From Eretmocerus hayati (lineage: Eukaryota; Arthropoda; Insecta; Hymenoptera; Aphelinidae): a DNA stretch of 64,000 nt. Below are positions 31,539-62,785 of this stretch, piece after piece (position 1 is the first letter of the stretch; the number at the start of each line of letters is the position of its first letter). Under the pieces are notes generated by a model. That model had not been told where the DNA came from. It saw nothing but the letters and a program-made list of their open reading frames with translations, and made no database searches. The translations under genes and the position numbers were made by a program. The stretch lies in contig CM056744.1 of the NCBI GenBank assembly GCA_029851415.1, positions 66,458,172-66,522,171 on the forward strand. Direction: 5' to 3'.

Positions 31539-31549
31539 TCTCTCTCTCT

Positions 31550-31553
<4 letters not shown>
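31539..31553. repeat. (TC)n between copies A and B
   Basis: A short TC run joins the AATC tail of A to the T-run (reverse poly(A)) of B. Confidence 0.9.
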
Positions 31554-31584
<31 letters not shown>

Positions 31585-32826
31585 GTGGTTGTAGGGCAAA
31601 TACGCTGCGACGTACGAAGGAGAGGCACCGGTCAGCCAAACACGGCTGGCCAGCACCTCCCCAACAGTCCCGGGCTGAAATCCGCATCGATACGGCCATC
31701 CGAACCGGGTAAACCCTCTCTTCCTTCTCCGTTGGCGCCGGCCATTGGACAAGGGAGAGATCCACCAACTTACCAATCCGGCCCCGGCACCGCGTGAGCA
31801 TTACTTCAGGGCCGGTGGCGTCTCGCGCTCAGGATCGAGCGTCTCTCTTCTCACGACTCGCAGGTGTTGTTTCCCTTTCTTCGATCTTCTTCCATCTTTT
31901 CATTCTTCATCTTCTTTCTTCTCTCTTCTTTCTTCTCTCTTCCCTCTTCAGTGCATCAGATTCCTCCTGGAATCATTTGGGCCTCTTCTGTTTCAATCGG
32001 CAGAGTCACTGTGATTCGCCTGCTTCGAGGCGCCTTACTTCCCTCTCTTTCTCCTCTTTGCGGGTCATCACCAGCTTGATGTATCCGGTGAGTCTATCCC
32101 ATGTCTCCTGGTTGCAGAGCAAGTACGGGACGAGATTCTCAGGTGTTAGTTGAGCACCCAGCCATTCATCCAGCTCGGCGCGCTCTCTCCGGGTGTTGCT
32201 GCACTTGAACAGGGCATGTTCGGCGTCATCCCATTCGTCCCCGCATGACTGACATGCTGGGGTCGTCCTCTTCTTGAACCTGGTTAGATAGGAACCGAAG
32301 CAACCATGATCGCTCAGTGCCTGCGTCGTCCAGTAGTCCATCTCTCCGTGGGTGCGTTCCGCCCACTTGGCTACGTCACGGATCAGCCGGTGCGTCCATC
32401 TGCCGTTTGCAAATGGCGAATCCCACTCAGTTTGCCAATGCTCAAGGGTGGTTTCCTTCTCGTTGTCGCGGATGATCTCCTTCATCGTCGGAGTGAGTAC
32501 TCGTTCGGCTCCGATCACTTTCTGGCGGTCCCAGATCCTCACTCGCTCCGCGACGAGCAAGTGGATGGGCGGAGTACTCGCCAATACGTAAGCCGCATCT
32601 CCTGACACAGTGCGGTAGGCACGGATACTCCTCAGGGCCGCTCTTCGGTGGACAGGCCCCATTCTCTTCTCGATGATGGTCTTCTCTACTCTCTTCCCCC
32701 ACACGGGTGCACCGTACAGCATGATGGAGGTAGTGACGGTGTTGAGAAGTGCGCGCCTCTTTTCCTTGGGTCCTCCGATATTCGGCATAAGCCGCTGGAG
32801 CGCCGCACCGACCCTGCTCGCCTTCT

Positions 32827-32830
<4 letters not shown>
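31553..32830 (-). mobile_element. 5'-truncated R1-like LINE (copy B), mosaic 3' UTR
   Basis: In sense orientation B begins at CCCAGAAGGCGAGC directly against the microsatellite, carries the last ~270 codons of ORF2 and ends with CCACCTT and a ~29-nt poly(A). The coding part and first ~100 bp of 3' UTR match K/J, but the distal UTR (CAACACCTGCGAGTCG onward) matches copy F. Both flanks are (TC)n on the + strand. Confidence 0.85.
32006..32830 (-). pseudogene. Copy B ORF2 C-terminus (R1-like)
   Basis: Open from the truncation to TGA. It contains the post-RT domain (MPNIGGPKEKRRALL, SIMLYGAPVWG, AYRTVSGDAAYVLAS) and the C-terminal Cys/His motif CQSCGDEWDDAEHALFKC typical of R1/LOA-type elements. 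The whole endonuclease and the catalytic RT palm are missing, so it cannot act on its own. Confidence 0.85.

Positions 32831-32860
<30 letters not shown>
32831..32860. repeat. (TC)n between copies B and C
   Basis: About fifteen TC units; the right flank of B and left flank of C. Confidence 0.95.
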
Positions 32861-32864
<4 letters not shown>

Positions 32865-33172
32865 GATTAGTTTTACGTGACCTTCTGTCACCTGACTGAA
32901 GCAAACTGTGATATTTTCTCCTTGTGAACCCATGCTCTCAGATTTTAGACATACGCGAATTCGCAATTGTAATGACTAGTCACAATTTGTGATATGTACC
33001 TGTCCTTGACCAAATCACTTGTGTTATATATATTTTACACCTTTTCTTTTTATTTTTGAATTTTTGAGTACTCAATTATTTCTAGAATTATGCAACATAT
33101 GTAAAAATATGTGGGTCACATTTTGTCTTATGACGAATAAAGGACATCAATCAATCAATCAATCAATCAATC
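32861..33172 (+). mobile_element. 3'-UTR-only CR1/Jockey-like fragment (copy C)
   Basis: About 310 bp with no coding sequence. It keeps the boxes ATGACTAGTCAC and CCTTGACCAAA, the mini-hairpin TTTGTC-TTAT-GACGAA, AATAAAGG and about six AATC units. The wording differs from A, so it is a related but distinct family. It is severely 5'-truncated against (TC)n. Confidence 0.8.
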
Positions 33173-33200
33173 TCTCTCTCTCTCTCTCTCTCTCTTTCTC
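33171..33200. repeat. (TC)n between copies C and D
   Basis: TC run following the C tail; the D fragment starts directly after it. Confidence 0.95.
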
Positions 33201-33960
33201 AATGTGTTGGTTCCCAGCATACCTTGCTGACCGGTGCTAGGCGTTCATTGATGGCGGAATGATTTCTGACTGGATAAATTTTACTGCAGGTATTCCACAA
33301 GGATCAGTTCCGGGTCCACTCTTGTTTTCCATCCCCATCAATGCCTTGCCTTGAGTCCTACGTTACTCCGAGCATATGATATACGCCGATGACACACAGA
33401 TCTATAATAGTTGCTACCGCTTCGAGATTGGGGAGACAGTCGGATTCATTGAGGGAGACGCACATGCCATCCATTTGTGGGCTATCGCCGACGGTTTGAG
33501 TTTGAACCGCAAGAAAACGAAAGTCATAATCCTTGGCAGTGCCGGAAACCTTCGACTCCTGAGAATGAGTGCACTCTCTCCAATAAGTATTGACGGTACG
33601 CCTATGGAGTTTGTGTCTGAGGTAGAGAATCTCGATATCTGGATAACAGCTGGCCTGTCCTGGAAGAAACACGTTTCTCGAATCTGCCGAAAAGTTTTTG
33701 GGAAATCGCGCCAACTTTGCCCGCATCAACATGCATTCTCCTTTCCTTCACTCGAATCCGTTATCTGAACTCCCATCCTCCCTGACTTCGGTTATGCCTT
33801 GTCCACCATAACCTCACTGGCGAGCAGAATACGTTTCTCCAGGGTGCTCAAAACGCATGCACTCGTTTCGTATTTGGTAACATTCCTTGGCGCGAGCATG
33901 TACTCCCTATCACGTACGATTAGGATGGCTCCCGGTGAAGGCGCGTAGACGATAATTCTT
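33201..33960 (+). pseudogene. L-family RT fragment (copy D), broken
   Basis: Reads as the RT palm and thumb of the L/M family: LADRC then a TAG where L has CAG, DGGMISDWINFTAGIPQGS, MIYADDTQIYNS and LSWKKHVSRICRKVFG. Further stops and frameshifts follow (TGA at 33766), and the sequence fades by about 33960, where a different repeat family begins. It has no 3' UTR or tail, so the 3' side was lost by rearrangement after insertion. Confidence 0.8.
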
Positions 33961-33965
33961 GCACA

Positions 33966-34338
33966 TTGCATGAATGGATTCATCGTTCTTTTGAGCCAAT
34001 TATCACCGCCCTACTCGGGCGGCCATGACGATTTGACGAATGGCGAACTGCGACCTTCGAGGCTCCACTTTCATAGTAGCTGCATCACGAAGGGATCTCT
34101 CATTCTTCCTGACTTTTTATTTCTTCATTGGAAGATGGACCAAGAGATGAAAAAGTGCTCCCTCGGGCGGGACTTGAACCTCACAATCACCGGTACTCCG
34201 GACCGGCGCTCTAATCAATTAGACCATCGAGGCGATTGCGAATTAAGTCGCTCAGGGTAGCCTCTTCTCATATATTTTGCCAATCTTTTGATACGGTCAA
34301 TCAAGGAAACATGATCCTTCAAATATGCGATATATACC
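33966..34338 (-). repeat. tRNA-related SINE-like repeat, copy 1 (partial)
   Basis: On the minus strand 34235-34163 is tRNA-like: GGTCTAATTGATTAGAGCG (A-box region), an anticodon arm CCGGT-CCGGAGT-ACCGG, then GGTTCAAGTCCCGCC (B box). The rest matches copy 3 (34484-34918) in reverse. It lacks the outer ~90 bp seen in copies 2 and 3 and joins copy D there. Confidence 0.6.
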
Positions 34339-36257: not shown

Positions 36258-36604
36258 TTGATCGATCGATTGATGTTCTTTATTTGTCCGGGGATGAAAG
36301 TTCCAATCACATACTCTTACATATGTCTATTAAAATATAAATACAAGCGTGAGAAGGAAATATCTGTATACATAAATACCGGTTTGGTCAAGGACACTAG
36401 GTATCACAATTAGTGATTTGTGATGGCGAATACACTCGGAATACTCATGATTCAAGAGTGCGAAATTGCTAAAAGAAAAGGGGTAAGGGCTCACAGTCTC
36501 ATCACAGTTTTGGTCCATCAGTCTGGTGACGAAAGGTCACATATATATGAATTTCAATCCACAGTAGATCCCAACCCATCACTGGTTGGAATAGTGCTTT
36601 AAAA

Positions 36605-36605
<1 letters not shown>
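36258..36605 (-). mobile_element. 3'-UTR-only CR1/Jockey-like fragment (copy U)
   Basis: In sense orientation: GTGACCTTTCGTCACCAGAC, the box CCTTGACCAAA, a minimal hairpin TCC-CC-GGA, AATAAAG and an ATCAATCGATCG tail. It ends near a short GAGAAAGA (36250-36257) on the left; the right flank is (GA)n. It is closest to C and N. Confidence 0.7.

Positions 36606-36644
<39 letters not shown>
36606..36644. repeat. (GA)n between copies U and E
   Basis: About nineteen GA units. Confidence 0.95.
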
Positions 36645-36647
<3 letters not shown>

Positions 36648-36929
36648 ATTGATTGATTGATTGATTGATTCATTCATTTAGGTTTTATTAAGGACGGGGG
36701 GTAAAAACCCCATTCGCCCACATAACAAGTGTACAAGCATACTACATAGAGAATAATAAATGTGAATTCAAAAATATACATATGAGGTGTCTAATAAAAT
36801 AAGGAAACGGTATTCATTACATTGAAGTGCTTAGGGAATATTTCCATCCATTGACGTTATCTCGAGATGTAATTCAGAGGGGGAGCTCTCAAAACAGAAA
36901 TTTGATTGTGTTCACTATGAAGGCTGATG

Positions 36930-39165
36930 AAGAGTATCGCGCAACGGTAGGGGGATGGCCTCTCGGCCTTCACAGGATGCACACTTGAACCAATCATCAC
37001 GATCTCGATCTCGCAAAAAATTCAAGAGTGTGGTTTTCAAAGTATCCAGGCTCAGCTCAAAGTTCAAACATGGAAGTTGATTAAGAAGGTGTGAGGCTCG
37101 GATAGTGAAGGACTGGTTGAGGGCTTCTGTTCGGGAGAGCGATAGGTGAAGGAGGCTTTGTTTTTCCTCTCGGTTTGGCGTAGGCTGGGATTTTCAGTAG
37201 CAAGAGAAAACTTAGACCTCAGGAATGTTGGTTGATTATACTTGATGATAGCGAGCGCAAGAGATCCGAGCAGATATTCTCTGCGGCTCTCAGCAGAGAG
37301 CCAATCAAGACTGACACGATAGGGTGTAACAATAGCCTGTCGAGGGATATTCCCATAGATGAATCTTATGCAGACATTGTGTAGACGATGTAGCTTCAAG
37401 TTTTGTTCCTTGGTTAAGCCGGTAAGCAATGCTGAGCCATAATCGAGATATGGGAGTACCGAGCTACTCACAATAGGACGTGTATCCGAGGGTGTCTTAG
37501 GGGCAGATATCTTCGATAGAGGAATAATTGAAGCTCGTTTCCAAGAAGTGGAAAAATAGCCTGACGAGAGAGACTCGTTATACACGCGTGTGAGGTGTGA
37601 CTGTATGGCAGGAAAAGCTAACTTGGTCATAGAGGAAGAAATCTCGTCCGCGCCCATACCCCTAGACTTGCTGTCAGAAAAAGCTTGAAAAACGTCAGTT
37701 TCACTCACTAGTGAGAAGTCAAATGTTGGGATATCCGAGGGCAACGGCATGGAACAGATGCGTTCGACTTCTTCGTCTTTTAGTGCATTACCTATGCTCG
37801 TTACGGTAGCATGAAGTTGGTTCAGTGTTTTTGAATCGAACAAATCTAGAGGGGACAAGCGGGGACGAGAGACTATTCCCAGCTTCCGAAGTTCGCTCCA
37901 TCTGGATTTAGAGTCTGATGCAGATGACACCCTGTCAGCGATATACGCGTTCTCGGCATTATTCAATTGACTTTTGACTTCTGCACGTTTCTACGGTACT
38001 CAAACAAGAGATCTTGCGATTTTGTGCGACTAGCAGTACGAAACAATTTGTCACGCTGATCCATGAGCGGACGAATTTCAGCTGACACCCAGGGTTTTTT
38101 TGAGGAGGTGCCATTGAAGTTTCTCATGGGTGCTAGCTGATCGAAGGCTTCAAGTGTGGCGCTGATGATCGAATTTACAGCATCATCTAGGTGGCTCTTA
38201 GCAAAATCAAAATAGACGGGGGAGCTTAGGTCTATGGGTCTTAGAATAGCATTATTACTAGGGCTTAGAATAGAATTGTGTCGAATATTTACAGGGGACT
38301 TGAAGGGAAGAGCAGCGGTAGGCAGGAGTTCTGTCGTGCGTAGTCTACACAGTGAGAATTAGGGTTTTGGTCTGTCACGGGAAGGATCTGATCGATCTCG
38401 GGCAGCTTGTTTCCGATCAGATCCAGTAGCTGAGGTTGACTTATCTTTGAAAGATTCCTCACAGAGATGGGTTTTGCAGGAATAACTAGCGTTTTAATAC
38501 TGTAGTCCATTTCTATAAAATCATGTCCAGCAGCAAAGGGGGATTCAGATTTCCTGTGTACAATGAAGGCCGTTCTATTTCGAACTAGAAAAAGGTCCAA
38601 GCGAGTGTGATGCAAAATTTTATCTTTTCCAATCGCATGATGCGTGGGAGCTGAATAGACAAGATGTAGTAAATGGGCACTGTACAGATCTTTGAATGAT
38701 AATGACTCAAAAGTATTGGCTGCCATATTGAGATTGAAATCACCAGTTACAATAGAGTGTTCATAAGGAGGGAGAAGTGGAGATAAGACGTCCATGAATT
38801 CAAGTGGGTATGCTGCAGAAGGTCTCCGGTATACAACAGAGAAGAGTAATTTTGAGTTACTCCAATTTATTTCAGCAATTACATACTCGGGGGTATTATT
38901 GAATTGAGGATCAGATTGGTGTAAGATTGTAACAATGAATTCAGATCTGGCATAAAATCCCACTCCGCCACCTTCCTTGCCAACTCTATCGTGCCGAAAA
39001 ACATTATAACCAGGGATATTATAGGGATCAAATGAGGCATTCGGCCCTAAAAAAGTCTCAGATACAGCCACGATATCATAGCGATGACTTGACATCTGCA
39101 CCTCAAGGAGGTTGAAGTTTGCAGTGAACCGGTTCAGGTTGATGTGACCGACAGTGATATGAGAT
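36930..39165 (-). pseudogene. Copy E ORF2, missing the RT palm
   Basis: The endonuclease is well kept (VGHINLNRF, IVAVSETFLG, VTGDFNLNMA, HTRLDLFLVR, AGHDFIEMDY) down to 38289. The linker continues in another frame (38280-37970) and then 37966-37064. In that last frame the RT motif SDTRPIV is joined in frame to SSSVLPYLDYGSALLTGL, a segment that in relatives lies ~300 residues further on. The motifs FDFSKAFD, PQGS and YADD are therefore absent. After 37085 the C-terminus continues in another frame (LNFLRDRDRDDWFK). This product cannot reverse-transcribe. Confidence 0.8.
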
Positions 39166-39215
39166 CTTGAAAAAGGGACAGGAAGAATAGGGGTCCGTGA
39201 CAGATCAGCAAAGTC

Positions 39216-40331
39216 TTATGCATCTGCATCCATGCGCTCATCGCGTTGATTTGGCACAAGAGGGATGAAATCATCTTGGTTGAGGATGGGAATGAGGTTA
39301 GCTCGAGGCGCAGGTCTTATCAAAACGGTCAGGTTCTGCACAATTGGCCTCAGGTACCCAAGTTCTCTAGATTCAATTAATGCCGTACGCCAAATTTCAT
39401 AAACTTGTGGAGGCAGAACAGGATTCAGGTAAATCTTGGCATTCCCTCCCAAGCCGAAAATATCCTGAGCGGTTTTGTCCTTCAGACCCGAGGCTTTCAA
39501 CAGAACAAATTCGCGAACAGTGGAGGAGCAGAACTTGGCAACTAGGGCAATTTTCGCGATATTTTGTATTCGAGACGAACTGTTTGTAGCACGCGGGTCA
39601 GCACCAGGCTGAGCAGTAGGCATGCGAGAGGGGGGTGCCGTCCATCGCCTTATAGACAGGATTGTTCCTACATGGTCAGCGCAATCGATTGCTTTTAAAA
39701 CTTGAGCAAGAGTGACTTTATCGGGAGTAACAACTGAATCTGGAATTCCAGAAATTCGAATTTCACAGGGGTCAACTTGGGTTCGTGTAGCGATAAAATC
39801 TGCGCGTAAGTTAGCAAATGCACGTGCATGTTCTTCCTCGTTATTTGTTAGACGTGACTCTATTGTTGTTAATTGCGTTTTGAGGGATGAGTGGGATGTC
39901 TCGAGCAAAAAACCAAGTTTCTTCAAGTGGTTAGGAATCTCCGGATCATCCTGGAATTTTTGCGCTTCAGACTCAGAAGGTTGAGACATACTTATAGATT
40001 CAAGTGATTCTACTTCTGTCGACGGTAAGGTCTGTCGAAATTTGACTCGAGAGTCGGACAGCTGAGGTGGTGATGTAGCAGACCGTTTACGAGAGGTGCC
40101 AGCGGTCGGCAGCGGAGCAGACGATGACTCAATGACGAAAGATGTTTGCTGAATTTTCCGCGAAACATAGGTGTTACACTCGTACGCGTTTGTTGACGCT
40201 CCACTGAAATCGGGGCAACAAGGAAGGTGAGCTGAACCGGCACAATTAATACACTGAATTGAGGGCTCCCCGCTTTTCACAACAATATTGCACAGTAGAC
40301 AAGAGTTTTTTGCGGCACCGAAGTTCATCAC
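39216..40331 (-). CDS. Copy E ORF1, PHD-like finger and RRM-like domain
   Basis: 371 residues, intact, starting MMNFGAAKNSC. Residues ~11-50 form a Cys/His-rich finger (CLLCNIV ... CINCAGSAHLPCCPDFSG) like the PHD-type fingers of some CR1 ORF1 proteins. Residues ~140-195 form a coiled coil (LKTQLTTIESRLTNNEEEH). The C-terminal ~170 residues (EIRISGIPDSVVTPDKV ... REFVLLKASGLKDK ... IYLNPVLPP) have the layout of an RNA-binding fold and resemble the single ORF of copy P. Expected role is binding element RNA. No stop interrupts it although ORF2 is broken. Confidence 0.75.
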   Translation of the reverse strand: MMNFGAAKNSCLLCNIVVKSGEPSIQCINCAGSAHLPCCPDFSGASTNAYECNTYVSRKIQQTSFVIESSSAPLPTAGTSRKRSATSPPQLSDSRVKFRQTLPSTEVESLESISMSQPSESEAQKFQDDPEIPNHLKKLGFLLETSHSSLKTQLTTIESRLTNNEEEHARAFANLRADFIATRTQVDPCEIRISGIPDSVVTPDKVTLAQVLKAIDCADHVGTILSIRRWTAPPSRMPTAQPGADPRATNSSSRIQNIAKIALVAKFCSSTVREFVLLKASGLKDKTAQDIFGLGGNAKIYLNPVLPPQVYEIWRTALIESRELGYLRPIVQNLTVLIRPAPRANLIPILNQDDFIPLVPNQRDERMDADA

Positions 40332-40759
40332 TCACACTCGCGCGTAGGTCAGCTGTTGACAGTGTTGGTGTCTGGATGCATTCAGTCAAGGAGTAGAGTC
40401 TTGAATGGTTGACGTGGCGCCATCTAGATGTTTGTAGCTCAACCAAGTTGTCGTGATGGAAGTTATCCTGCGATTATAGTGATGACGATGTTATAGCTTG
40501 TTACACAGGGGCGCTGCTGCTGTGCAATGATGTGGTAAAATTCTCTCGCGTTGTCTTGTAACTAACCTCCAAATTCTGAGGTAAATCAGACACCCTGGCT
40601 CAGAATATGCGAGCCCAGCCGTGTATGCTCGCGAATGCAGGAGCCAGTAGGTGCCCAATTCACCTAAAACAGATTTCCGCTCGGAAAAGTACAAAAAACT
40701 GTATTCATTGGCTGAGAACACCAGAGCTTAATGAACGTCGACTGCTTATACTCACAGCG

Positions 40760-40761
<2 letters not shown>

Positions 40762-40793
<32 letters not shown>
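40762..40793. repeat. (GA)n between copies E and F
   Basis: About sixteen GA units. Confidence 0.95.
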
Positions 40794-40796
<3 letters not shown>

Positions 40797-42361
40797 GAAG
40801 GAGTGATAATAGCGGCTTTCGCGGACGACGCGGGGCTCATAGTCTGGTCCAACAACGAGGAACTCTTGGGTAAACGCGCAAACGAGGCGCTGGCCCGAGT
40901 CTACGAGTGGATGATCAGCAGGCTCCTAGAGATTGCTGTCAAGAAGTGCGAAGCAATCGTGGTCACAAGACGCAGGAAGTTTGACGTGCCCCACTTTTAC
41001 ATCAACGGGCAAGAGATCCCACGCAAGACAGAGCTGAAATACCTCGGCGTATGGCTTGACGACAAGTGGTCGTTCAAGAAGCACATCCAGGAGGCCGCCC
41101 AGAAAGCGAGCAGGGTTGGTGCGGCGCTTCAGCGGCTGATGCCGAATTTCGAGGGACCCAAGGAAAAGAGGCGCGCACTTCTCAACCCCGTCAGCACCTC
41201 TATCATGCTCTACGGTGCACCCGTGTGGGGAAAGAGAGTAGAGAAGACCATCATCGAGAAAAGGATGGGGCCTGTCCACCGGAGAGCGGCCCTGAGAAGT
41301 ATCCGTGCCTACCGCACCGTGTCAGGAGATGCGGCTTACGTATTGGCGAGTACACCGCCCATCCACTTGCTCGTCGCGGAGCGAGTGAGGATCTGGGACC
41401 GCCAGAAAGTGATCGGAGCCGAACGAGTACTCACTCCAATGATGAAGGAGATCATTCGCGACAACGAGAAGGAAACCACCCTTGAGCATTGGCAAACTGA
41501 GTGGGATTCGTCATTTGCAAATGGCAGATGGACGCACCCGCTGATCCGTGACGTAGCCAAATGGACGGAAAGCACCCACGGAGAGATAGATTACTGGACG
41601 ACGCAAGCACTGAGTGACCACGGTTGCTTCGGTGCCTATCTGACCCGGTTCAAGAAGAGGACATCCCCAGCATGCCAGTCATGCGGGGACAACTGGGATG
41701 ACGCTGAACACGCCCTGTTCACGTGCAACGACACACAAAGAGAGCGCGCCGAGTTGGATGGATGGCTGGGTGCTCAACTGACACCTGAGAACCTCGTCCC
41801 GTACTTACTTCGCAACCAGGAGACATGGGATAGAGTTACCGGATACATCAAGCTGGTGATGACCTGTAAGGAGGAGAAAGAGAGGGAGGTGAGGCGCCTC
41901 GATGCCGGTGAACTACAGTAAACCTGCCGATTCAAACAGAAGAGGTCCAAATGGTTCCAGGAGGAATACGATGGACTGGAGAGGGAAGGAAGAAGAGAGA
42001 AGATCGAAGAAAGAAGAAAGAAGAATGAAGAATGAAGAGATGGAAGAAGATCGAAGAAAGGGAAACAACACCTGCGAGTCGTGAGAAGAGAGACGCTCGA
42101 TCCTGAGCGCGGGACGCCGCCGGCCCTGAAGTAATGCTCACGCGGTGCCGGGGCCGGATTGGTAAGTTGGTGGATCTCTCCCTTGTCCAATGGCCGGCGC
42201 CAACGGAGAAGGAAGAGAGGGTTTACCCGGTTCGGATGGCCGTATCGATGCGGATTCCAGCCCGGGACTGTTGGGGAGGTGCTGGCCAGCCGTGTTTGGC
42301 TGACCGGTGCCTCTCCTTCGTACGTCGCAGCGTATTCGCCCTACAACCACCTTAAAAAAAA
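40794..42361 (+). mobile_element. 5'-truncated R1-like LINE (copy F)
   Basis: Starts inside ORF2 directly after (GA)n, keeps an open C-terminal reading frame and ends with the type-1 3' UTR (CAACACCTGCGAGTCG ... CGTACGTCGCAGCGTATTC), CCACCTT and a short A-run into (GA)n. Confidence 0.9.
40796..41921 (+). pseudogene. Copy F ORF2 C-terminal part (R1-like RT)
   Basis: Open for about 375 codons. It starts at the RT catalytic strand (IIAAFADDAGLIVW, with FADD in place of YADD as in K), runs through RRRKFDVPHFYINGQEIPRK, SIMLYGAPVWG and HWQTEWDSSFANGRWTH, and ends with the Cys/His motif CQSCGDNWDDAEHALFTC. It preserves the 44-bp segment that K has lost. The endonuclease and fingers are absent. Confidence 0.85.
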
Positions 42362-42380
42362 GAGAGAGAGCGAGAGAGAA
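42361..42380. repeat. (GA)n between copies F and G
   Basis: Short interrupted GA run (one GC interruption). Confidence 0.9.
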
Positions 42381-42775
42381 TGAATGAATCAATGGATGAA
42401 TGATAACCTTTATTCGCCCAAGGGCAAAAATACAAAAATACAGTAGCATAAGAAACATAGGTCACTCATACATAATAAATACATTAAGCTTATAAAAATT
42501 CGTCATTTTGAATCAGGCTCCATCACAGAAAGTGACTAGTCATCTTGAGGCATCGTAGGATGCATGAGAGTCATGGGAAAGAAAAAGAAGAAAAAGTCAC
42601 GTTTCCATATACATATATCAGTCTTGACGAGAAAGATTAAGGAAGAAGAAACATTCTTACGTTCTGGAAGACATATGAAAAAGACATGGACCCACAGTGA
42701 TATCACAGGAATCTCAGTTCGGTAGCGAGGAAGCCACGCATAACATCAATTGAAACGGCTCGTGCCTATCGTAGT

Positions 42776-45228
42776 TTACAGATTGAAATATTGTTTTTTC
42801 TCCACATTAATCCTCTGGGAAAATTGTGTCAACAGGAAGTCATATAAGGACCCTTCAAATGATGATATCTTCCCAAGCTGCCAAAAACTCGGAGGGAGAA
42901 AGTTCGACAGATGAGCACATTGGACCTGGAAAGATCTTCTCCTATATTCGAGTCTCATGTTGGGAACTTTGAGTACCCGCTCTTCTAGATCACCCCGTGC
43001 GGGGCGTTCGAATTGGTACCTGGTGAACATCGCAGCTAGGTAGCCAGGTTCTCCTAATTGCATGATCTTATGCATCAAGAGAGCCGCGAAGTACATCCTC
43101 CTCGAATCAGTACGTAACCAACCCAAAAGCTCCCTAAACGGGGTGATATGCTCGTTTCTCCTGAGGTCAAAAATATATCTCACACATGAATTGCTTAGTC
43201 TCTGTATCCTTTGCCGCTGTTCGTCCATGGCGTCGAGGTACACGACCGTGCAGTAATCTGAGTGCGGTTGAACCAATGACTCGACTAGGCGAATTCGTAG
43301 AGGTCTGGGGATACATGCCCTGAAAAAACAGACACCGTATAGGGCTCTGTTGACTTTCTTAGTCACTTGGTCAATGTGCGGTTTCAATGTCAATTCACTG
43401 TCAAGTGTAACACCAAGACTCACGACCGTATCACTGAACGGGATGAACTTTCCCTCCTGTATCTCAACCCCTGGCAAGTCGATTCTCTTCAGATCTTTGA
43501 TATTCCTCTCCGAACTGAAGTAGATTAACTTGATCTTGCCAGCGTTGAGACACGGTCCGGGACTTCTGGCTCACTCGGCAACTGGTCGTCTTATTTCGTC
43601 CAGCCGAGAAATACCTTCCCCGATCTCATTTTTCTCGATTTGGAGATGAATTTGGAGATCATCCGCATAAAATAGATGATGAAACGACTTTCCGTCTAGC
43701 GAACCAGCCAGGTCATTCACATACAAGCTGAAGAGGAGAGGCCCAAAAACGGACCCCTGTGGAACATTCAGATTGGTTTTGAGTCAATCAGATTTGCCTA
43801 CTTTAGAAGTGATTTGTTGGGTGCGACCTTGTGAATATGATTTTATTTATCCACAGTAGCACCAATCTTGAGAAGCCAAGATGTCGTAGATTCCTTAACA
43901 GCTTGGATGGTGAGATTGTGTCAAAAGCTTTAATAAAATCGAATAGTAGGAGCAGATTGATCTTCTTCCTGTCTATACCTCCTCTGATGTCGTCGGTCAA
44001 TTTTAACAAAGCTGTCTGGGTGCTATGGTGTTGCCCAAAACCAGTCTGGAAGCGGTCAAGTATCTTCTCGGTTTTCAAATACTCCGTGATTTGGTCATGT
44101 GCGATTTTTTCCAGGACCTTGGAGAGGAAGCACAGCAGCGCTATAGGACGGAAGTCCGAGACCGTTGATGGAGCAGCAGTCTTCTTTAATGCCATCAGCT
44201 GCGCTTGCTTTCAAGCCTCAGGAAAAATGCCACGAGCGAAAGAGGAGTTGAAAATATGTACAATAAGAGCACCAAGAGCCGGAAGAGCTTTCGCGATCAC
44301 GCTTTGGGGTATGCCATCCGCTCCACGGGCCTGTGAGGAGAAATGTTTAATAGCAAGGACTACATCATTTAAATTTGTGGGCTTAAATTCGAATCCCTCC
44401 TCCGGTGCCAAGTCAATATCGTCAATTGCTTCATTAATATTCCCGTGGGGCGAAACGGAAACTCCTGCAAAGTGTGCGTTCAACTCATTTGGTGTGAAGC
44501 CATGAAGTTCCTCCTCTTTGCTTCTGGGCCAGAGACCGAGATTGCGCATCTCCTTCCAAATGTTCTTCTTCTGATCGAGACCATCTGACAAATGGGTTTG
44601 AGTGAAGGAGTTATGCTCTTGTTCAATGCGCAAGTCGACCTCTTCGCTGAGCCGAAAGTATTCATTTTGAAGCTCAGGACACTTGCACTAGTTACGTTAA
44701 GCCGTTCCCAGCGCCTGCGCGTCGCGTTTCGCTCATTCATGAGTACCCTCAGCTCAGGACCAATCCAGGAAGCGACATTTTTACGCGGATTAATGGTTCT
44801 TCCAAGTGCTAATTCATCCATAACGGTCTGTAAATTTCCATTCAAGCAGTGAATTGCACCTTCCAAACTGGTTTCGGCATTTCCAAGAGCTGTCTAGTCA
44901 CAGCGAAGCAATCGGTCATTCAATATCCCCGGAGTGATGTTTAAAAAATCCCTGTAGGTAGAGGAATTTCTCGGCGGAGTGAAAGTAAAGACGTTGATGG
45001 TGACGTCAAGGACGGAGTGCCTGCCGAAACTGGGCAGGATACTGTTTTGAAAGTCAGTAATGCTGTGATTGTCATCTACATAAATGTGATCAATCCATGT
45101 ATGAGATGTATTGAGGGTGTTTTGGTGAGTCGGTCCATGCTGCACTATCTTCAAGGCAAGTTCTTTTGTTAGTGCAGTCAGTTCCTTGGTGTAGGGATGA
45201 GCTGTGTCGGACAAATCCGCGTTCAGAT
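42776..45228 (-). pseudogene. Copy G ORF2, frameshifted
   Basis: Pieces in several frames align with copy A ORF2: the endonuclease end (TWIDHIYVDDNHSITDFQNS, 45214-44894), linker (44633-44211), fingers and palm (FRPIALLCFLSKVLEKIAHD, 44195-43803), catalytic FYADDLQIHLQ near 43660, and the thumb to the end (43477-42776, VSLGVTLDSELTLKPHIDQ). At least four frame changes and stops separate them. Confidence 0.85.
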
Positions 45229-45497
45229 TGTTGGAATATCTATAGCAAATCTCCCCACTCCACCATCTTGACCGACGCTCGCGCCGCTGCTCGCCCCGCT
45301 CACTCCGCTCGCGGTACTCACTGCTAACGCAACCATCTTACTGTGTTGACGCGTTGCTGCTCTGATGAGCATCTGTATAACCTATGAGTATCTGTATAAT
45401 GGTGTGATATGGTGGTTTGGTGGTTTCTTGAATAAACCTTATTCTTTTAGTTCGTAATATAGTATCTTATGATTTGCTGCACCCCAATAACCCTTCA
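45229..45497. mobile_element. Solo LTR inside copy G
   Basis: 269 bp with TG...CA ends (TGTTGGAATATC ... AATAACCCTTCA), flanked by a perfect 5-bp duplication CAGAT (45224-45228 and 45498-45502). Removing it restores continuity with copy A (ATGGGAGATCTGAACGCGG), so the insertion site is certain. It contains GAATAAACC near 45432, a likely polyadenylation signal on the + strand. The 5-bp duplication fits a BEL/Pao or Ty3-type LTR element. Confidence 0.85.
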
Positions 45498-45502
45498 CAG
45501 AT

Positions 45503-46430: not shown

Positions 46431-46433
46431 CTA

Positions 46434-46468
46434 TAGAGAGAGAGGGAGAGAGAGAGAGAGAGAGAGAG
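46434..46468. repeat. (GA)n between copies G and I
   Basis: GA run with a GGGA interruption. Confidence 0.95.
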
Positions 46469-46808
46469 CCGAGTGGCCGAAGAGAGAAGATGGAGAAGAG
46501 GAACGCTCGCACCGAGCGCGAGACATGCCGCTCATCCTGAAGTAATGCTCACGCGGTTCCGGGATGAGATGGTAGATGCAGGTGGATCTCCTTCTTGATT
46601 GCCCGATGCCCTAGGTATCGGACATCGAGGGGAGAGGGATATTACACGGCCGGGCCCACCTCTCGGTGGGCCCCACCCAAACCCGTGTCCCGCCTGGTAT
46701 GGCCTGTGTGGGCTATGCGTAGTCCGCGTATGCTGAACCAGTCCGGTGTCTGGGGACGGATCCGAGGGATCCTGAGGCAGATTTTGCCCTCTAACCACCT
46801 TAGAAAAA

Positions 46809-47596: not shown

Positions 47597-47612
47597 GAGA
47601 GAGAGAGAGAGA
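47596..47612. repeat. (GA)n between copies J and K
   Basis: About eight GA units; the first K codon follows directly. Confidence 0.95.
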
Positions 47613-51304: not shown

Positions 51305-51786
51305 CTCTGCCGATTGGAACAGAAGAGGCCCAAATGATTCCAGGAGGAATCTGATGCACTGAAGAGGGAAGGAAGAAGAAAGAAGAGAGAAGAAAGAAGA
51401 AAGAGAGGGAACAATGAAGAATGAAGATAGAAGATGCCGACAAGTGGCCGAAGAGAGAAGATGGAGAAGAGGAACGCTCACAATCGAGCGCGAGACATGC
51501 CGCTCATCCTGAAGTAATGCTCACGCGGTTCCGGGATGAGATGGGAGATGCAGGTGGATCTCGTTCTTGATTGCCCGATGCCCTAGGTATCGGACATCGA
51601 GGGGAGAGGGATATTACACGGCCGGGCCCACCTCTCGGTGGGCCCCACCCAAACCCGTGTCCCGCCTGGTATGGCCTGCGTGGGCTATGCGTAGTCCGCG
51701 TAAGCTGAACCAGCCCGGTGTCTGGGGACGGATCCGAGGGATCCTGAGGCAGATTTTGCCCTCTAACCACCTTAAAAGAAAAAAAA

Positions 51787-51817
51787 GAGAGAGAGAGAGG
51801 AAGAGAGAGAGAGAGAA

Positions 51818-51851
<34 letters not shown>

Positions 51852-51873
51852 GGAGGGAGGGAGGGAGAGAGAT
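51787..51873. repeat. (GA)n/(GGGA)n between copies K and L
   Basis: One of the two longest arrays in the chain, about 87 bp, with GGGA and GAAA interruptions. Confidence 0.95.
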
Positions 51874-55281: not shown

Positions 55282-55325
55282 TGAGAGAGAGAGCGAGAGA
55301 GAGAGAGAGGGAGAGAGAGAGAGAG
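55282..55325. repeat. (GA)n between copies L and M
   Basis: GA run with GC and GG interruptions. Confidence 0.95.
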
Positions 55326-56793: not shown

Positions 56794-57529
56794 TTCAGGG
56801 AACGTTCAATAGCCGTTTAGGAAACGTTTGGGTCGGTCACGTACTGATTTACGGAGAATGTACTTCGCAGCTCTGTTAATGCACAAGATCATGCTCTCAG
56901 GAGAGCCTGGCTACCTAGCTGCGATATTTACCAGGTACTAATCCGAGCGTCCCGCACGGGGTGATGTAGAAGAGCAGGTCCTGAAGGTTCCCAGGATGAG
57001 ACTTCAGTATGGAAGAAGATTTTTCCGGACGCAATGTGCTCATCTGTGGAATCTTCTCCCTTCGAGCATTCGGCAGCTCGGTTAAGTGACATAATTTAAG
57101 GAGACATTGAAGAGTTTTCTGCTAACAAGACCTCCGCAAAAGATTGATGTGGGTTTGAAGAAATACTCCAATCTGTGATGGGCTGGACTCTGTTCCTTCC
57201 TTCCAATTAGTGATTCCTTTCCATGTGACCTTTCGTCATAAGACTGATGTGTATATTTTGATTTTCTGTGATATGACCAAGAGTCCTTGCTCCATCTACT
57301 TTTCTTTACTAATTTTGTGGTTACTCCATTAGTACCTGATTCTGTTCCATCTTGACTAATCACAAGCTGTGAAAATCTTTGTCCTTGACCAAACTGGTAC
57401 TCAGTAGAATTCATATTCAACGTGCATTTTTATATACATATATATATATACTTATGAATTCATAACAGACATATTTTGCCATATGTAATTACTCTTCTGT
57501 CTTCGGACAAAGACAAGACATCAATATCA
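56794..57529 (+). mobile_element. A-like LINE 3' fragment (copy N)
   Basis: From about 56813 it matches the post-RT end of A: RRMYFAALLMHKIMLSGEP, then a TAA, then RPARGDVEEQVLKVPRMRL. The 3' UTR keeps TTGACTAATCAC and CCTTGACCAAA, a hairpin TGTC-TTCG-GACA and an ATCAATATCAATC tail into (TC)n. Bases 56794-56812 are unassigned junction sequence. It is a separate family from A, as the UTR has diverged. Confidence 0.8.
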
Positions 57530-57554
57530 ATCTCTCTCTCTCTTTCTCTCTCTC
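57530..57554. repeat. (TC)n between copies N and O
   Basis: TC run after the N tail, leading into the T-run of O. From here to 62.8 kb the + strand array is TC, whereas 36.6-55.3 kb is GA. Confidence 0.9.
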
Positions 57555-58163
57555 TTTTTTTTTTTTTTTTTTTTTTTTCAAGGTGGTTAGAGGGCAAAAT
57601 CTGCCTCAGGATCCCTCGGATCCGTCCCCAGACACCGGACTGGTTCAGCTTACGCGGACTACGCATAGCCCACGCAGGCCATACCAGGCGGGACACGGGT
57701 TTGGGTGGGGCCCACCGAGAGGTGGGCCCGGCCGTGTAATATCCCTCTCCCCTCGATGTCCGATACCTAGGGCATCGGGCAATCAAGAAGGAGATCCACC
57801 TGCATCTACCATCTCATCCCGGAACCGCGTGAGCATTACTTCAGAATGAGCGGCATGTCTCGCGCTCGATTGCGAGCGTTCCTCTTCTCCATCTTCTCTC
57901 TTCGGCCACTTGTCGGCATCTTCTGTCTTCATTCTCCATTGTTCCCTCTCTTTCTTCTTTCTTCTCTCTTCTTCCTTCTTTCTTCCCTCTTCAGTGCATC
58001 AGATTCCTCCTGGAATCATTTGGGCCTCTTCTGTTTCAATCGGCAGAGTCACTGTGATTCGCCTACTTCGAGGCGCCTTACTTCCCTCTCTTTCTCCTCT
58101 TTGCGGGTCATCACCATCTTGATGTATCCGGTGAGTCTATCCCATGTCTCCTGGTTGCGGAGC

Positions 58164-58166
<3 letters not shown>
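57555..58166 (-). mobile_element. 3' fragment of R1-like LINE (copy O)
   Basis: In sense orientation: GACTTGCTCCGCAACCAGG (last ~40 codons of ORF2), the type-2 3' UTR and a ~24-nt poly(A), flanked by (TC)n on both sides on the + strand. Nearly identical to J. Confidence 0.9.

Positions 58167-58199
<33 letters not shown>
58167..58199. repeat. (TC)n between copies O and P
   Basis: About sixteen TC units. Confidence 0.95.
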
Positions 58200-58202
<3 letters not shown>

Positions 58203-59885
58203 AGTCTTATCACACGTATTCTCCAGTGTCTCTCTCCATATCGTCACTCTTTCTCTGCCGCAAGTTGCCTACGGGCTCTTCTTCTACAGACTCTTGCACG
58301 CCAAATTTTGCAAGGATTCGTTGGATTCATAATTCGTTGTGGACCTACGTATCTTGCAAAATTCATCTACTTTTTCCATCAACACGTTTCCTGATTTGAG
58401 GTCAGGAGATTGGATGGCACGCTGCTCGAAGCTTCTCTCAATCTTTGAACAACTTCTATTGTCAGATGCTAGATGGCAGCAATTTCTAGCAGATTTCTAC
58501 ATTATCAACTCTGTTGAAGCCTAATTCAAACGTGTTCCGACCTCAAGTGTTTTGCCTCAGTGAGCTGCCTGATCGTCGCTAGCAGACGCCTGAGAGAACT
58601 GACAGCTGTTCCATTCTTGTATCAAACCATGGCTCCAAATTTATTCACAGTGAGTTCCTCTGAACAAGATCAAGTGACTTCGTATATAACATGCAAATCT
58701 GAGTCTAACTCAGAGAGTGCTGGTCAACTAATTGAAATGCCACCTCATTTCAAAATTTTCCTTGCTCATTTTGACGCTACTCAAGAAAGACTCTTTTCCA
58801 AATTGAACGAACTTGAGAATGGAATAGAAAAGCGTATTACTGCAATTGAAAAAGATGTTTCTGAAATCCGTGATCAGCTTTCTCGGGTCTCTAATCAGTC
58901 AACATTAGTTGACTCTGCTGAAGTAATTCTGACGAACATTCCTCGTGTTCTAAATCTCTCGAAAAATGAGATTATAAGTAAAGTTTTTGAGGCCATAGAA
59001 GTACCCGATTTGCAGAACTTTGTAGTGAATGTTAGAGAGTGGAAAGGTCCTCGTTTTCGCAATATGTATTCATCAGTTCCAACAAAATCAAATTCTTCGA
59101 AAACGAGAGGTTTAGATTCTCAATCAATTGTAATACAATTTTCATCAAACATAGTTCGAGATAGATTCATTGTGAATTCATCTAAATTGAAGAAGAAATC
59201 TATTAGAGATATCTTTGGGTATGATGACTACTCTGAAATTTATTGCAGCCTGCTATGTTCGAAAGATGTTCACAATTCGATCAAAGAGGCTTATCTTGTG
59301 AGTGTTAGACTGAAAATACCGAAACCAGTGGTGAAAAATCTGACTGTTTGCATGAAAGTTTCAAAAACTGACCCGCTGGTGCCAATTTTTTCAGAGCCTG
59401 AACTTGAGAATTTTGAATTCCAGCATAATGTGTACTGTTGAACAGTTCAGTACCTCAATAAGCTACGTTACTCTACTCGACAAGTTTCTGACATTGATTT
59501 TCCACTGCTTTCACGATTAGAAGATGGATTCCCTGGAAAGCTAGCTTTGCAATTTTCTTCCCGGCCAAATTATTTGAAAATCACATTTCAAGAACGTCAA
59601 AGTATCGCATGAATATGTACATCGCATACCAACTACACTGTCGTTCATTCATTCATCTCGAATTCCTGTGATTTGATAATTTTCTATCAATTTCAATCAA
59701 ATATTGTAATTCTAGGATATTGTTGTAATTCGTAAGCATCGATACAATTCATAAGTGTTTTTATCATCTTGAACTATTCATTTTCCACTAAAGCATTTTA
59801 TATTTTCATGTAAAATGAATCTTGCTACCTGTACCACATAGGGTAATACCCCAAGGTACCATTGAATAAACTAATCTAACTAATC

Positions 59886-59890
<5 letters not shown>
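58200..59890 (+). mobile_element. ORF1-only element (copy P)
   Basis: About 1.7 kb: a ~430-bp leader, one ORF1-like gene, ~450 bp of 3' UTR, hairpin GGGT-AAT-ACCC, AATAAA and a tail of CTAATCTAA units running into a long (TC)n. No trace of endonuclease or RT is present between the ORF and the 3' end. It looks like a non-autonomous LINE derivative that retains the 3' architecture of group 1. Confidence 0.7.
58629..59441 (+). CDS. Copy P ORF1-like protein
   Basis: 270 residues from MAPNLFTVSSSEQDQ (the frame is open ~23 codons further upstream without AUG). Residues ~45-95 form a coiled coil (ERLFSKLNELENGIEKRITA). The remainder is laid out like ORF1 of copy E: AEVILTNIPRVLNLSKNEI against EIRISGIPDSVVTPDKV, REWKGPRFRN against RRWTAPPSRM, VRDRFIVNSSKLKKKSIRDI against VREFVLLKASGLKDKTAQDI, and PKPVVKNLTVCMK against LRPIVQNLTVLIR. 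No PHD-like finger is present. Expected to be an RNA-binding protein of the RNP. The open frame in the absence of ORF2 suggests either recent birth or selection on ORF1 alone. Confidence 0.65.
   Translation: MAPNLFTVSSSEQDQVTSYITCKSESNSESAGQLIEMPPHFKIFLAHFDATQERLFSKLNELENGIEKRITAIEKDVSEIRDQLSRVSNQSTLVDSAEVILTNIPRVLNLSKNEIISKVFEAIEVPDLQNFVVNVREWKGPRFRNMYSSVPTKSNSSKTRGLDSQSIVIQFSSNIVRDRFIVNSSKLKKKSIRDIFGYDDYSEIYCSLLCSKDVHNSIKEAYLVSVRLKIPKPVVKNLTVCMKVSKTDPLVPIFSEPELENFEFQHNVYC

Positions 59891-59975
<85 letters not shown>
59889..59975. repeat. (TC)n between copies P and R
   Basis: About 87 bp of uninterrupted TC, the longest pure array in the window. Confidence 0.95.
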
Positions 59976-59976
<1 letters not shown>

Positions 59977-61748
59977 GTAAGCGCAGCTGATTGCACTAAA
60001 GAAAACTGCTGCTCCATCAACGGTCTCGGACTTCCGTCTTATAGCGTTGTTGTGGTTCCTCTCCAAGGTTCTAAAAAAAATCGCACATGACCAAATCACG
60101 GAGTATTTGAAAATCGAGAAGATACTGGATCGCTTCCAGACTGGTTTTAGGCAATACCGTAGCACCCAGACAGCTTTGTTAAAATTGACCGTTGACATCA
60201 GAGTAGGTATAGACAGGAAGAAGATCACTTTGCTCGTACTATTCGATTTTAGTAAAGTTTTTGACACAATCTCACCATCAAAGCTGTTGAGGAAGCTACG
60301 ACATCTTGGCTTCTCAAGATCGGCGCTCCTGTGGATAAAATCATATTTACAGGGTTGCACCCAACAGATCACTTCTAAAGTAGGCAAATCTGATTGGCTC
60401 GGAACCAATCTGGGTGTTTCACAGGGGTCCGTCCTTGAGCCTCTCCTCTTCAGCTTGTATGTGAATGACCTGGCTGGCTTGCTAGACGGAAAGTCGGTTC
60501 ATCATCTCTTTTATGCGAATGATCTCCAAATCTATCTCCAAATCGAGAAAAATGAGATCAGGGAAGGTATTGCTCCGCTGGGCGAAATAGGGCGACTAGT
60601 TGCCGAGTGGGCCAGAAGTTCCGGCCTGTGTCTCAACGCTGGCAAGACCAAGGCGATCTACTTCAGTTCGGAGAGAAATATCAAAGATCTGAAGAGAATG
60701 GACTTGCCAGGGGTTGAGATACAGGAGGGAAAGTTCATCCCGTTCAGTGATACGGTCGTGAGTCTTGGTGTTACACTTGACAGTGAATTGACGTGGAAAC
60801 CGCACATCGACCAAGTAACTAAGAAAGTCAACAGAGCCCTATACGGTCTGCGGTTTTTTAGGGCAAGTATCATCAGACCTCTCCGAATTCGCCTAGTCGA
60901 GTCATTGGTTCAACCGCACCTAAATCATTGCACGGGCGTGTACCTCGACGCCACGGACGAACAGCAGCAACAGATACAGAGACTAAGCAATTCTTGTGTG
61001 AGATATATTCTTGATCTTAGGAGAGACGAGCACATCACCCCGTTCAGGGAGCGTTTGGGTTGGTTACGCACTGATTCGCGGAGAATGTACTTCGCAGCTC
61101 TCTTGATGCATAAGATCATGCACTTGGGAGAACCTGGCTACCTAGCTGCGATGTTTACCAGGTACCAATTCGAACGCCCCGCACGGGGTGATCTAGAAGA
61201 GCGGGTACTCAGAGTTCCCAACATGAGACTTGAGTATGGAGGAAGATCTTTCCAGGTCCAATGTGCTCATTTGTGGAACTCTCTCCCTCCGGGCTTTCGG
61301 CGAATTAAAAAAATTTCACTTATTGAAGACGCTCTAAAAGAATTTCTCTCGTCACAACCCTCTCAGAGAATTGATGTGGACCAGAAACAGTACTTTAATC
61401 TTTGATAAGCTTGGGCTCTCTCTCTGAATAGTCTTCTTTTAGTTTTAGTTGAGTTATGCGTGACTTCCCTGTCACATAATTCTTAAATCTGTGATAATTT
61501 CCGGGCCCATGTCTTTTTATATGTACTGATGTACCTTGATCAATTCACTGATTCATCTCACTCGTGTGCATCTCTCGATGCCTCTTCATGACTAGTCCCT
61601 TCCTGACATGAATGAAATTTCCTTGACCAAAATGACAAATTATATAATATTTATATGTTGATTATGACCGTTATAAATATCTCATGGAACTGTATTTTCA
61701 CTTTTGCCTCCGGGCGAATAAAGGGAATCAATCAATCAATCAACCAAT

Positions 61749-61752
<4 letters not shown>
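59976..61752 (+). mobile_element. 5'-truncated A-family LINE (copy R)
   Basis: Begins inside the RT (AAGCGCAGCTGATTGCAC, matching A at 29756) exactly at the end of (TC)n. It continues to the 3' hairpin TTTGCC-TCC-GGGCGAA, AATAAAGG and AATC units into (TC)n. The 3' UTR matches A closely. Confidence 0.9.
59981..61405 (+). pseudogene. Copy R RT domain, catalytic Asp changed
   Basis: 475 codons are open after a TAA at 59978: AQLIALKKTAAPSTVSDFR, LVLFDFSKVFDTISPSK, NLGVSQGSVLEPLLFSLY, FYANDLQIYLQ, then the complete C-terminus. YADD has become YAND and VPQGSVLGP has become VSQGSVLEP, so catalysis should be lost even though the frame is intact. Confidence 0.85.

Positions 61753-61790
<38 letters not shown>
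61751..61790. repeat. (TC)n between copies R and S
   Basis: About nineteen TC units. Confidence 0.95.
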
Positions 61791-61793
<3 letters not shown>

Positions 61794-62500
61794 CAGACAG
61801 ATCAAGATCCTAGGTATGATCATTGATCGTTCACTTGACTGGAGCAAACAAATCAATCAGATAAGCCATCGTGTCCATGATTCTTTCTATACTCTAAGAA
61901 TCGCTGCCCGTAGTTTGGCTCGCCCGCTGCGGCAGCAGCTTGTGAGCAGATTGGTTCTGCCGTATCTTGATTATGGTTCAGCGTTGCTCACTGGTTTGAA
62001 TAAGGAGCAAAACCTGAAGCTCCATCGTCTGCATAATGCTTGCATCAGATTCATCCACGGAAACATCCCGCGGTAAGCAAATGTCACACCCTATCGTCTA
62101 AGTCTTGGCTGGCTCTCCGCTGAGAGTCGAAGAGAATACCTTCTTGGGTCACTCGCAATTGCGATTATATAGTACAATCAGCCAACGTACTCAAGACCCA
62201 AATTTTCTCTCGCGATTGAGAAGCCTGCTTTGCGCCAGTCTGAAAGGAAGAACAAAGCCTCACTCACGTATCGCTCCCCCCGAACAGAAGCCCTCAATCA
62301 ATCTTTCACCATCCGTGCCTCGTATCTATTGAATAATCTCCCCTGCCTAAATTCTGCGATGAGCCTCAACAACCTGAAGGAGATGCTTCTAAATTTCCTA
62401 TGGGATCGTGATCGCGACAGTTGGTTTAAGCGCGCTCCTCGCGAAGGACAACTAGCTATCCCACCATGCCTACGCGATACTCTTTCCCCACCATTGTAAT
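61794..62500 (+). pseudogene. Copy S ORF2 C-terminus
   Basis: Reads RQIKILGMIIDRSLDWSKQ, VLPYLDYGSALLTGLNKEQN and ACIRFIHGNIPR, then TAA at 62074. After frame changes come SERKNKASLTYRSP and NLPCLNSAMSLNNLKEMLLN to 62499. It supplies the thumb region that flanks the deletion in copy E. Confidence 0.8.
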
Positions 62501-62758
62501 GGACACAATTGATCTTCCGTATCAGAGCTCTCCTCGCTATGAATTCCAACAGATGTCACAATTAGACAAGTCCTCGAGATCTTCACTGAATTTGAAACAA
62601 TTTTGGAATATTCTTGCTTATGCTACCTAGCACTTATTTTAGATATCTATTTAGTTTTAGTATATTCCATATGTAACATGCATCATGTATACTCGCTATT
62701 TGGACAAATGGGGTCTTGACCCCCCGTCCTCAATAAAATCAATGTCAATCAATCAATC
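61794..62758 (+). mobile_element. 5'-truncated E-family LINE (copy S)
   Basis: Coding remnant, then GGACAAAT and the hairpin GGGGT-CTTG-ACCCC, AATAAAAT and AATC units into (TC)n. The same 3' design is seen at the E end. Confidence 0.85.
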
Positions 62759-62769
62759 TCTCTCTCTCT
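62757..62769. repeat. (TC)n between copies S and T
   Basis: Short TC run. Confidence 0.9.
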
Positions 62770-62785
62770 TCCCTTCAATACTGAG

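Follow-up and report, generated by a model that had tools for sequence, protein, structure and literature searches.

We analysed a 64,000-nucleotide stretch of the Eretmocerus hayati genome (GCA_029851415.1, contig CM056744.1, positions 66,458,172 to 66,522,171 of the forward strand), called here the window, in which copies of long interspersed nuclear elements (LINEs) lie end to end between (GA)n/(TC)n tracts. The results pointed to independent LINE insertions, at least 14 and probably about 20 of them, piled up in this microsatellite by two groups, CR1-like and R1-like, that use its opposite strands. We give this reading a probability of roughly 0.85.

Tracts were located by a dinucleotide-run scan, and the copies were compiled by comparing the window with itself, by tblastn searches with 194 related proteins and by comparing the inter-tract segments. 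All 16 GA/TC tracts listed in the initial annotation were recovered as runs of at least 10 bp, at an offset of 0-2 bases. Its estimate of about 17 copies in 31539-62770 was also borne out, with 17 counted (B1, D1, Cx, D2, E1, B2, A2, B3, B4, B5, C1, C2, A4, B6, F1, A3 and E2). The chain extends leftward (E3 and A1, from about 26.06 kb) and rightward (G1, from 62770 to the window end), giving 20 copies in all (Table 1). These were named by family as A1-A4, B1-B6, C1, C2, Cx, D1, D2, E1-E3, F1 and G1; 14 are CR1-like, including the D copies, which are short 3' ends related to A, and six (B1-B6) are R1-like.

The strongest sign of directed insertion was the orientation of the tracts, which is fixed within each group and opposite between them. 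The sense strand of the CR1-like copies showed TC at 22/22 tract-bearing ends (14 copies), whereas that of the R1-like copies showed GA at 12/12 (six copies), so that the rule held at 34/34 ends. A tract was present at both assigned ends in 14 of the 20 copies, and in all 14 the strand was identical on the two sides, as the initial annotation had stated. CR1-like copies carried AATC-type tails, some degenerate, and AATAAA preceded the tail in 10 of the 12 visible CR1-like 3' ends (exceptions E3 and A4); the six B copies ended with poly(A). The mark of a microsatellite-specific LINE, one repeat in a fixed orientation, was thus found within this window. It could also be proposed that insertion is guided by how open or unusually structured GA/TC DNA is (H-DNA, chromatin) instead of by endonuclease recognition. 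Polypurine repeats form triplexes, and a shared physical property could explain why both LINE groups use the same tracts. However, structure alone sets no orientation, whereas primer-tail pairing could, and the orientation here is fixed and opposite by group, which makes a structural explanation unlikely.

We compared the copy ends with chance by counting an end as a hit when a run lay within 6 bp of it, with minimum run lengths of 8 bp and 10 bp counted separately. Chance was taken as the probability of meeting a run, on the given side, no more than 6 bp from a randomly picked point of the chain region. The 37 assigned ends leave out the Cx 3', E3 5' and G1 3' ends. Under the 8-bp rule, 34/37 ends lay at a run (5' 17/19, 3' 17/18; chance 2.2% per end), the misses being the D2 3' end (36260) and the C2 and A4 5' ends. 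Under the 10-bp rule, the count was 31/37 (5' 16/19, 3' 15/18; chance 1.9% per end), with extra misses at the A1 5', E3 3' and C1 3' ends, where the runs are shorter or interrupted. When the 37-end set was circularly shifted 9086 times as a unit, the number of hits averaged 0.47 and never exceeded 5, compared with 31 for the real positions. These all-end totals are partly circular, because six of the 19 5' ends (A1, D1, D2, E1, F1 and G1) have no fuller homologue and were placed by the tract; the exact 5' end of A1 is doubtful, since another GA run lies at 26667-26698.

The 3' ends were identified from their tails, without reference to the tract, and D2 was the only one of the 18 with a visible tail that missed a run of at least 8 bp. 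Among the 5' ends, 13 were fixed by homology, and with both minimum run lengths 11 of these lay at a tract. Eight of the 11 (A2, A3, B1, B2, B3, B4, B6 and Cx) were fixed by aligning their DNA to a fuller copy, and three more (B5, C1 and E2) by a protein match reaching the tract. The remaining two, C2 and A4, meet head to head at 56812/56813, where there is no tract. The initial annotation had stated that truncated copies stop exactly at the tract, which holds for the 11 ends and fails for these two. Binomial tails, which treat the ends as independent while adjacent copies actually have tracts in common, were 4e-17 (5', 11/13) and 1e-27 (3', 17/18) under the 8-bp rule, and 1e-17 (5', 11/13) and 2e-23 (3', 15/18) under the 10-bp rule. 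Two ends call for caution: the initial 150 bp of E2 has no DNA alignment to E1, and some weaker protein alignments of E2 and Cx continue across the tract, which we take to be chance extension.

The junctions supported the microsatellite as the insertion target and not a product of the tails. Four tracts (32830, 40762, 46435 and 58167) are flanked by two 5' ends and are tail-free, and therefore cannot be tails. At the eight nucleotide-checked 5' ends, homology to the fuller copy starts 0-3 bases into the segment, the segment sits 0-5 bases from a pure run, and the fuller relatives have no GA repeat at the truncation point. Unlike in RTE-type elements, the repeat is not restricted to the 3' side, since tracts also stand at 5' ends. 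Conversely, slippage of 3' tails might have generated the tracts, with later copies landing there by chance. The CR1-like tails are themselves (AATC)n leading into (TC)n, and LINE-born microsatellites are reported for lepidopteran RTE elements (PMC2887409, excerpt). We consider this origin improbable, in view of the tail-free tracts and of truncated copies adjoining a tract that their fuller relatives lack; moreover, poly(A) is followed by (GA)n and not by a further A-rich repeat. Tail growth may nevertheless lengthen some tracts. Truncation driven by microhomology to GA-rich spots within the element found no support, as the fuller copies have no GA repeat there and the junction overlap by eye is 0-1 base.

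Several observations weigh against the pile-up reading or limit it. Along the chain, the array strand reads TC from 26.5 to 33.2 kb, GA from 36.6 to 55.3 kb and TC again from 57.5 to 62.8 kb, changing at 33.97-36.26 kb and at 56812/56813. These two flips rule out the simple form of a single-array model, so the chain is not one simply split array; the proposal of the initial annotation that every insertion splits an array suits the individual strand blocks and not the chain as a whole. The tract rule is broken by three known ends (D2 3', C2 5' and A4 5'), and these, together with the missing Cx 3' end, coincide with the two strand changes. The evidence comes from one locus, and target-site duplications are invisible inside a repeat. 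An old LINE fragment (20214-20718, minus strand) lies at no GA/TC tract, and (AG)30 at 2294-2354 (61 bp), the second-longest pure run, has no LINE recognised beside it and is apparently an empty target. Finally, a single blastn alignment of 88% spans both A1-tract-B1 and A2-tract-B2, as a block duplication would.

As a guess, one inversion of about 21-23 kb would explain both flips and the exceptions. Two results weaken this idea: Cx and C2 overlap in C-family coordinates, and none of the protein matches at the left break represents the half that A4 or C2 lacks. Twin priming by two RNAs at 56812/56813 was rejected by reasoning, as the second primer in a TC array would yield a GA-type C2 3' junction. 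The head-to-head junction of C2 and A4 (56785-56828) is tract-free and is spanned by an imperfect 22-bp tandem duplication. At the other strand change, 33965-34893 holds an imperfect inverted repeat (about 72%) with stretches that look tRNA-like by eye, possibly opposed copies of a short interspersed nuclear element; ARAGORN and Rfam reported nothing there. The two flips could also arise if unrelated LINE contigs had been misjoined via microsatellites, and simple repeats are classic false-join points. Nevertheless, the pure runs reach at most 87 bp, within ordinary long-read span, and random joins would be expected to break the strand rule half the time, whereas it held at all 34 tract-bearing ends; an assembly artefact therefore has only a slim chance.

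The copies differ in age and in truncation. B3-B6 are 95-98% alike (2-5% divergence) and cut at differing points, A1, A2 and A3 are 81-86% alike (14-19% divergence; 85-89% alike in blastn under other gap costs), and C1:C2 and E1:E2 are less than 70% alike (divergence above 30%). This spread suggests that the tracts were used over a long period, and the stop-free ORF2 (open reading frame 2) of A1 and of C1 suggests recent activity. Within the 88% alignment, identity is 84-85% on the A side and 93% on the B side, and the truncation points of B1 and B2 lie 304 bp apart; A1-B1 and A2-B2 were therefore read as separate insertions. Segmental or tandem duplication of a block with LINEs and tracts, suggested by that alignment through two tail-to-tail A-B pairs and by the consecutive, closely alike B3, B4 and B5, is hardly credible given this unequal divergence and truncation points that differ (B1 vs B2; B3, B4 and B5), each at a tract.

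The reverse transcriptase (RT) tree separated the R1-like and CR1-like groups with support of 100/99, in agreement with the initial annotation, which had seen two clades in one chain. The B RT fell in a clade of 11 of the 43 rows with the sole R1DM-named row (100/99); that row is long-branched, and the others of the clade bear no clade name. B5 ORF2 contains an endonuclease of the apurinic/apyrimidinic (APE) type and an RT (Exo_endo_phos_2 1.8e-20, RVT_1 9.9e-18), and the best solved match of this endonuclease by sequence is TRAS1 (8.6e-6). A zf-RVT match in the shifted 3' frame (0.00093) was below cut-off. B5 ORF1 matches zf-CCHC (1.6e-07), with two knuckles by pattern and a third Cys-rich stretch by eye; ORF1 of this type occurs also in I, Jockey and other clades (PMC4120745, excerpt) and is therefore not R1-specific. 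The named relatives of B are from Hermetia, Drosophila virilis and Trachymyrmex.

A and C lay together in a 12-row RT clade with P0095 (100/99), on the opposite side of the branch from B, and P0095 was among the best matches of E1 and E2. We call this clade CR1-like. A1 and C1 match RVT_1 and Exo_endo_phos and gave no RNase H match, while the domain search found only an endonuclease in E1 and no family in F1. The AATC-type tails provide the short-unit 3' end, in place of poly(A), that characterises the CR1 group. ORF1 of A1, E1 and F1 matched no PHD or RRM family with an E of 1 or less; the sub-threshold matches there include Baculo_FP_2nd (A1, 0.0026) and Prok-RING_1 (E1, 0.18). From domain make-up and tails, A, C and E were provisionally classed as CR1-like, and F1 is putatively CR1-like, judged by its tail and a weak match of its ORF1 (24%). 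The wasps Ampulex and Nasonia supplied the named relatives of A. In viral contigs, the tail-tract pattern had no match, and one (A) and three (B) stretches matched peptide patterns, none encoding a relative; two phage records matched the RT of A at only about 23%.

The directly observed features, namely the adjacency of copies and tracts, the strand rule, the clean 5' junctions and the differing copy ages and truncations, would be accounted for by target-primed reverse transcription. The CR1-like group would nick the GA strand, and the GA-ended primer would pair with the terminal UC of the (AAUC)n RNA tail, giving the sequence ...(AATC)n-(TC)n on the sense strand. In the R1-like group, the nick would fall on the TC strand, and a T-ended primer would pair with the poly(A) tail, giving a copy that ends in ...(A)n-(GA)n. 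Rejoining of the upstream end to the remaining array would then leave clean 5' junctions. The repeat persisting on both sides would be available for re-use, and the tracts might regrow by slippage. The initial annotation had described the pad as self-renewing; repeated use, and the repeat flanking 14 copies on either side, agree with this, while self-renewal itself is something we infer.

Somewhat beyond an even chance, in our judgement, a CR1-like lineage that includes at least families A, C and E is (TC)n/(GA)n-specific as a whole, a separate R1-like lineage has converged on the repeat from the other strand, and microsatellites of this genome act as shared reusable sites growing into LINE islands. 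If true, a strict microsatellite target in a CR1-like lineage would add a group to the target-specific LINEs, and specificity for one sequence would have arisen independently. Opposite strand use would provide a direct test of target choice, with endonucleases of two distant lineages on one dinucleotide substrate. It would also offer a simple route to LINE pile-up with little gene damage, which could explain part of the nested LINE clusters.

Table 1. LINE copies and GA/TC tracts of the chain, in window coordinates.
Feature	Position	Strand	Description
E3	26056..26556	+	CR1-like 3' end; degenerate (AATC)n tail, then TC; start nominal; likeness to E2 3' terminus by eye only
Interrupted (TC)n, E3/A1	26557..26612	+	
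A1	26613..31538	+	longest CR1-like A copy; RVT_1 1e-34, Exo_endo_phos 6.3e-08; 66% to P0001
A1 ORFs	ORF1 27115-28254, ORF2 28255-31182	+	ORF2 975 aa; free of internal stops
(TC)n, A1 3' end/B1 3' end	31537..31553	+	
B1	31554..32829	-	R1-like; 5' truncation at tract; poly(A) tail preceding sense-strand (GA)n
(CT)16, B1 5' end/D1 5' end	32830..32861	+	
D1	32862..33170	+	short A-related 3' end; (ATCA)n tail; 84% to final 50 bp of A1
(TC)n	33171..33195	+	
Cx	33200..33970	+	C-like RT fragment; 5'-truncated at tract; 79.6% to C1, homology from segment start; 3' end not found
D2	36260..36606	-	A-related 3' end; 5' side at tract; no tract after 3' tail (exception)
(AG)n	36608..36644	+	array strand switched to GA
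E1	36645..40761	-	CR1-like; ORF1 and ORF2 pieces; Exo_endo_phos 5.9e-11; tblastn P0095/P0094
(AG)16, E1 5' end/B2 5' end	40762..40793	+	
B2	40794..42360	+	R1-like; 5'-truncated
(AG)5, B2 3' end/A2 3' end	42361..42370	+	
A2	42371..46434	-	CR1-like A copy; 5'-truncated at tract
(AG)n, A2 5' end/B3 5' end	46435..46468	+	
B3	46469..46816	+	R1-like; 348 bp; 97-98% to B4, B5, B6
(AG)13	46817..46842	+	
B4	46843..47595	+	R1-like; 753 bp
(AG)n	47596..47612	+	
B5	47613..51785	+	longest of the R1-like copies; includes ORF1 end with zinc knuckles
B5 ORF2	48091-50868	+	endonuclease, RT; 3' part goes on in different frame
GA-rich tract, B5 3' end/C1 3' end	51786..51872	+	
C1	51873..55282	-	CR1-like C copy; RVT_1 1e-34; coding match extends to 55282
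C1 ORF2	52120-55014	-	964 aa; free of internal stops
GA tract	55283..55325	+	
C2	55327..56812	-	C family; RVT_1 6.3e-24; 66% to C1; 5' end meets A4 without tract (exception)
A4	56813..57530	+	A family; 77% to A1 over 386 bp; 5' end meets C2 (exception); 3' tail, then TC
TC tract, A4 3' end/B6 3' end	57531..57555	+	array strand back to TC
B6	57556..58166	-	R1-like; 5'-truncated; 96-98% to B3, B4, B5
(TC)n, B6 5' end/F1 5' end	58167..58199	+	
F1	58200..59888	+	putatively CR1-like; ORF1-bearing; (CTAAT)-type tail; tblastn P0095 224-408, 24%
(TC)43	59889..59975	+	longest pure tract
A3	59976..61751	+	A family; 5'-truncated at tract
(TC)19	61752..61789	+	
E2	61790..62756	+	E family; top coding match begins at tract
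(TC)n	62757..62769	+	
G1	62770..64000	+	CR1-like; runs past window end; tblastn P0085, P0086

In the rest of the window, an exon of cytoplasmic dynein 1 heavy chain was found at 11405-12043 (plus strand); it aligns with solved chains over their residues 819-1010 (E 2.1e-65). Downstream of this exon on the same contig, perhaps in an intron, lies the LINE chain. A diverged tandem array occupies 3330-5126, its units measuring about 145-147 bp, and a second array with a 139-bp unit lies at 7660-8023, with inverted related sequence at 6669-7055. An inverted repeat pair at 13796-14578 and 15003-15794 (77% alike) is possibly a fold-back element. Direct repeats of about 545 bp, 95% alike, lie at 21726-22272 and 25513-26055, and the second adjoins the left edge of the chain.

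Most reported target-specific LINE families belong to early-branched, Tx1 and R1 groups (PMC4640811, excerpt). Among the matches listed in the open-access literature, neither a GA/TC-specific CR1-like lineage nor two LINE groups on one microsatellite was described, which is weak evidence of absence. Waldo is a microsatellite element of the R1 clade. Mino inserts into AC repeats (PMC3124438, excerpt). Like these R1-clade elements, the copies described here are APE-type LINEs with a microsatellite target, and the B copies are R1-like; the target here, however, is GA/TC and is held in common with a non-R1 group. TRAS and SART insertions stack in silkworm telomeric repeats, with the two families oppositely oriented. 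The insertion site of TRAS1 lies between T and A in (TTAGG)n telomeric repeats (PMC2868851, excerpt), and SART1 is an R1-clade LINE (PMC3747384, excerpt). The likeness lies in the short tandem repeat target and in TRAS1 being the best solved match of the B5 endonuclease. The difference is that TRAS and SART are both R1-clade and telomeric, whereas here two separate LINE groups use a dinucleotide repeat.

Kibi and Koshi are TC-repeat-type LINEs of Tx1 (L1 group). The initial annotation had placed Kibi in the R1 clade, for which the cited sources give no support: KIBIDR1 and KIBIDR2 are listed in zebrafish (PMC2684134, excerpt), and Kibi_Tr stands in a fish LINE tree with Tx1 branches (PMC4746887, legend). 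The cited parts of these two papers present them as fish elements and do not show them as R1 or as sharing an array. Togen inserts in (TG)n and some HERO families are microsatellite-targeted (PMC4640811, excerpt), as are the LINEs DongAg and DongBg (PMC3636483, excerpt); all of these belong to restriction-like endonuclease clades, whereas the elements here are of the APE type. Bird CR1 has a short-unit 3' end and a mild TTCT preference at the insertion site (PMC2612034, excerpt), a loose preference in AT-rich DNA that differs from residence in one microsatellite. Lepidopteran RTE elements resemble the present copies in having LINE 3' ends tied to simple repeats (PMC2887409, excerpt), but in those elements the repeat belongs to the 3' end, whereas here it is found at the 5' ends too.

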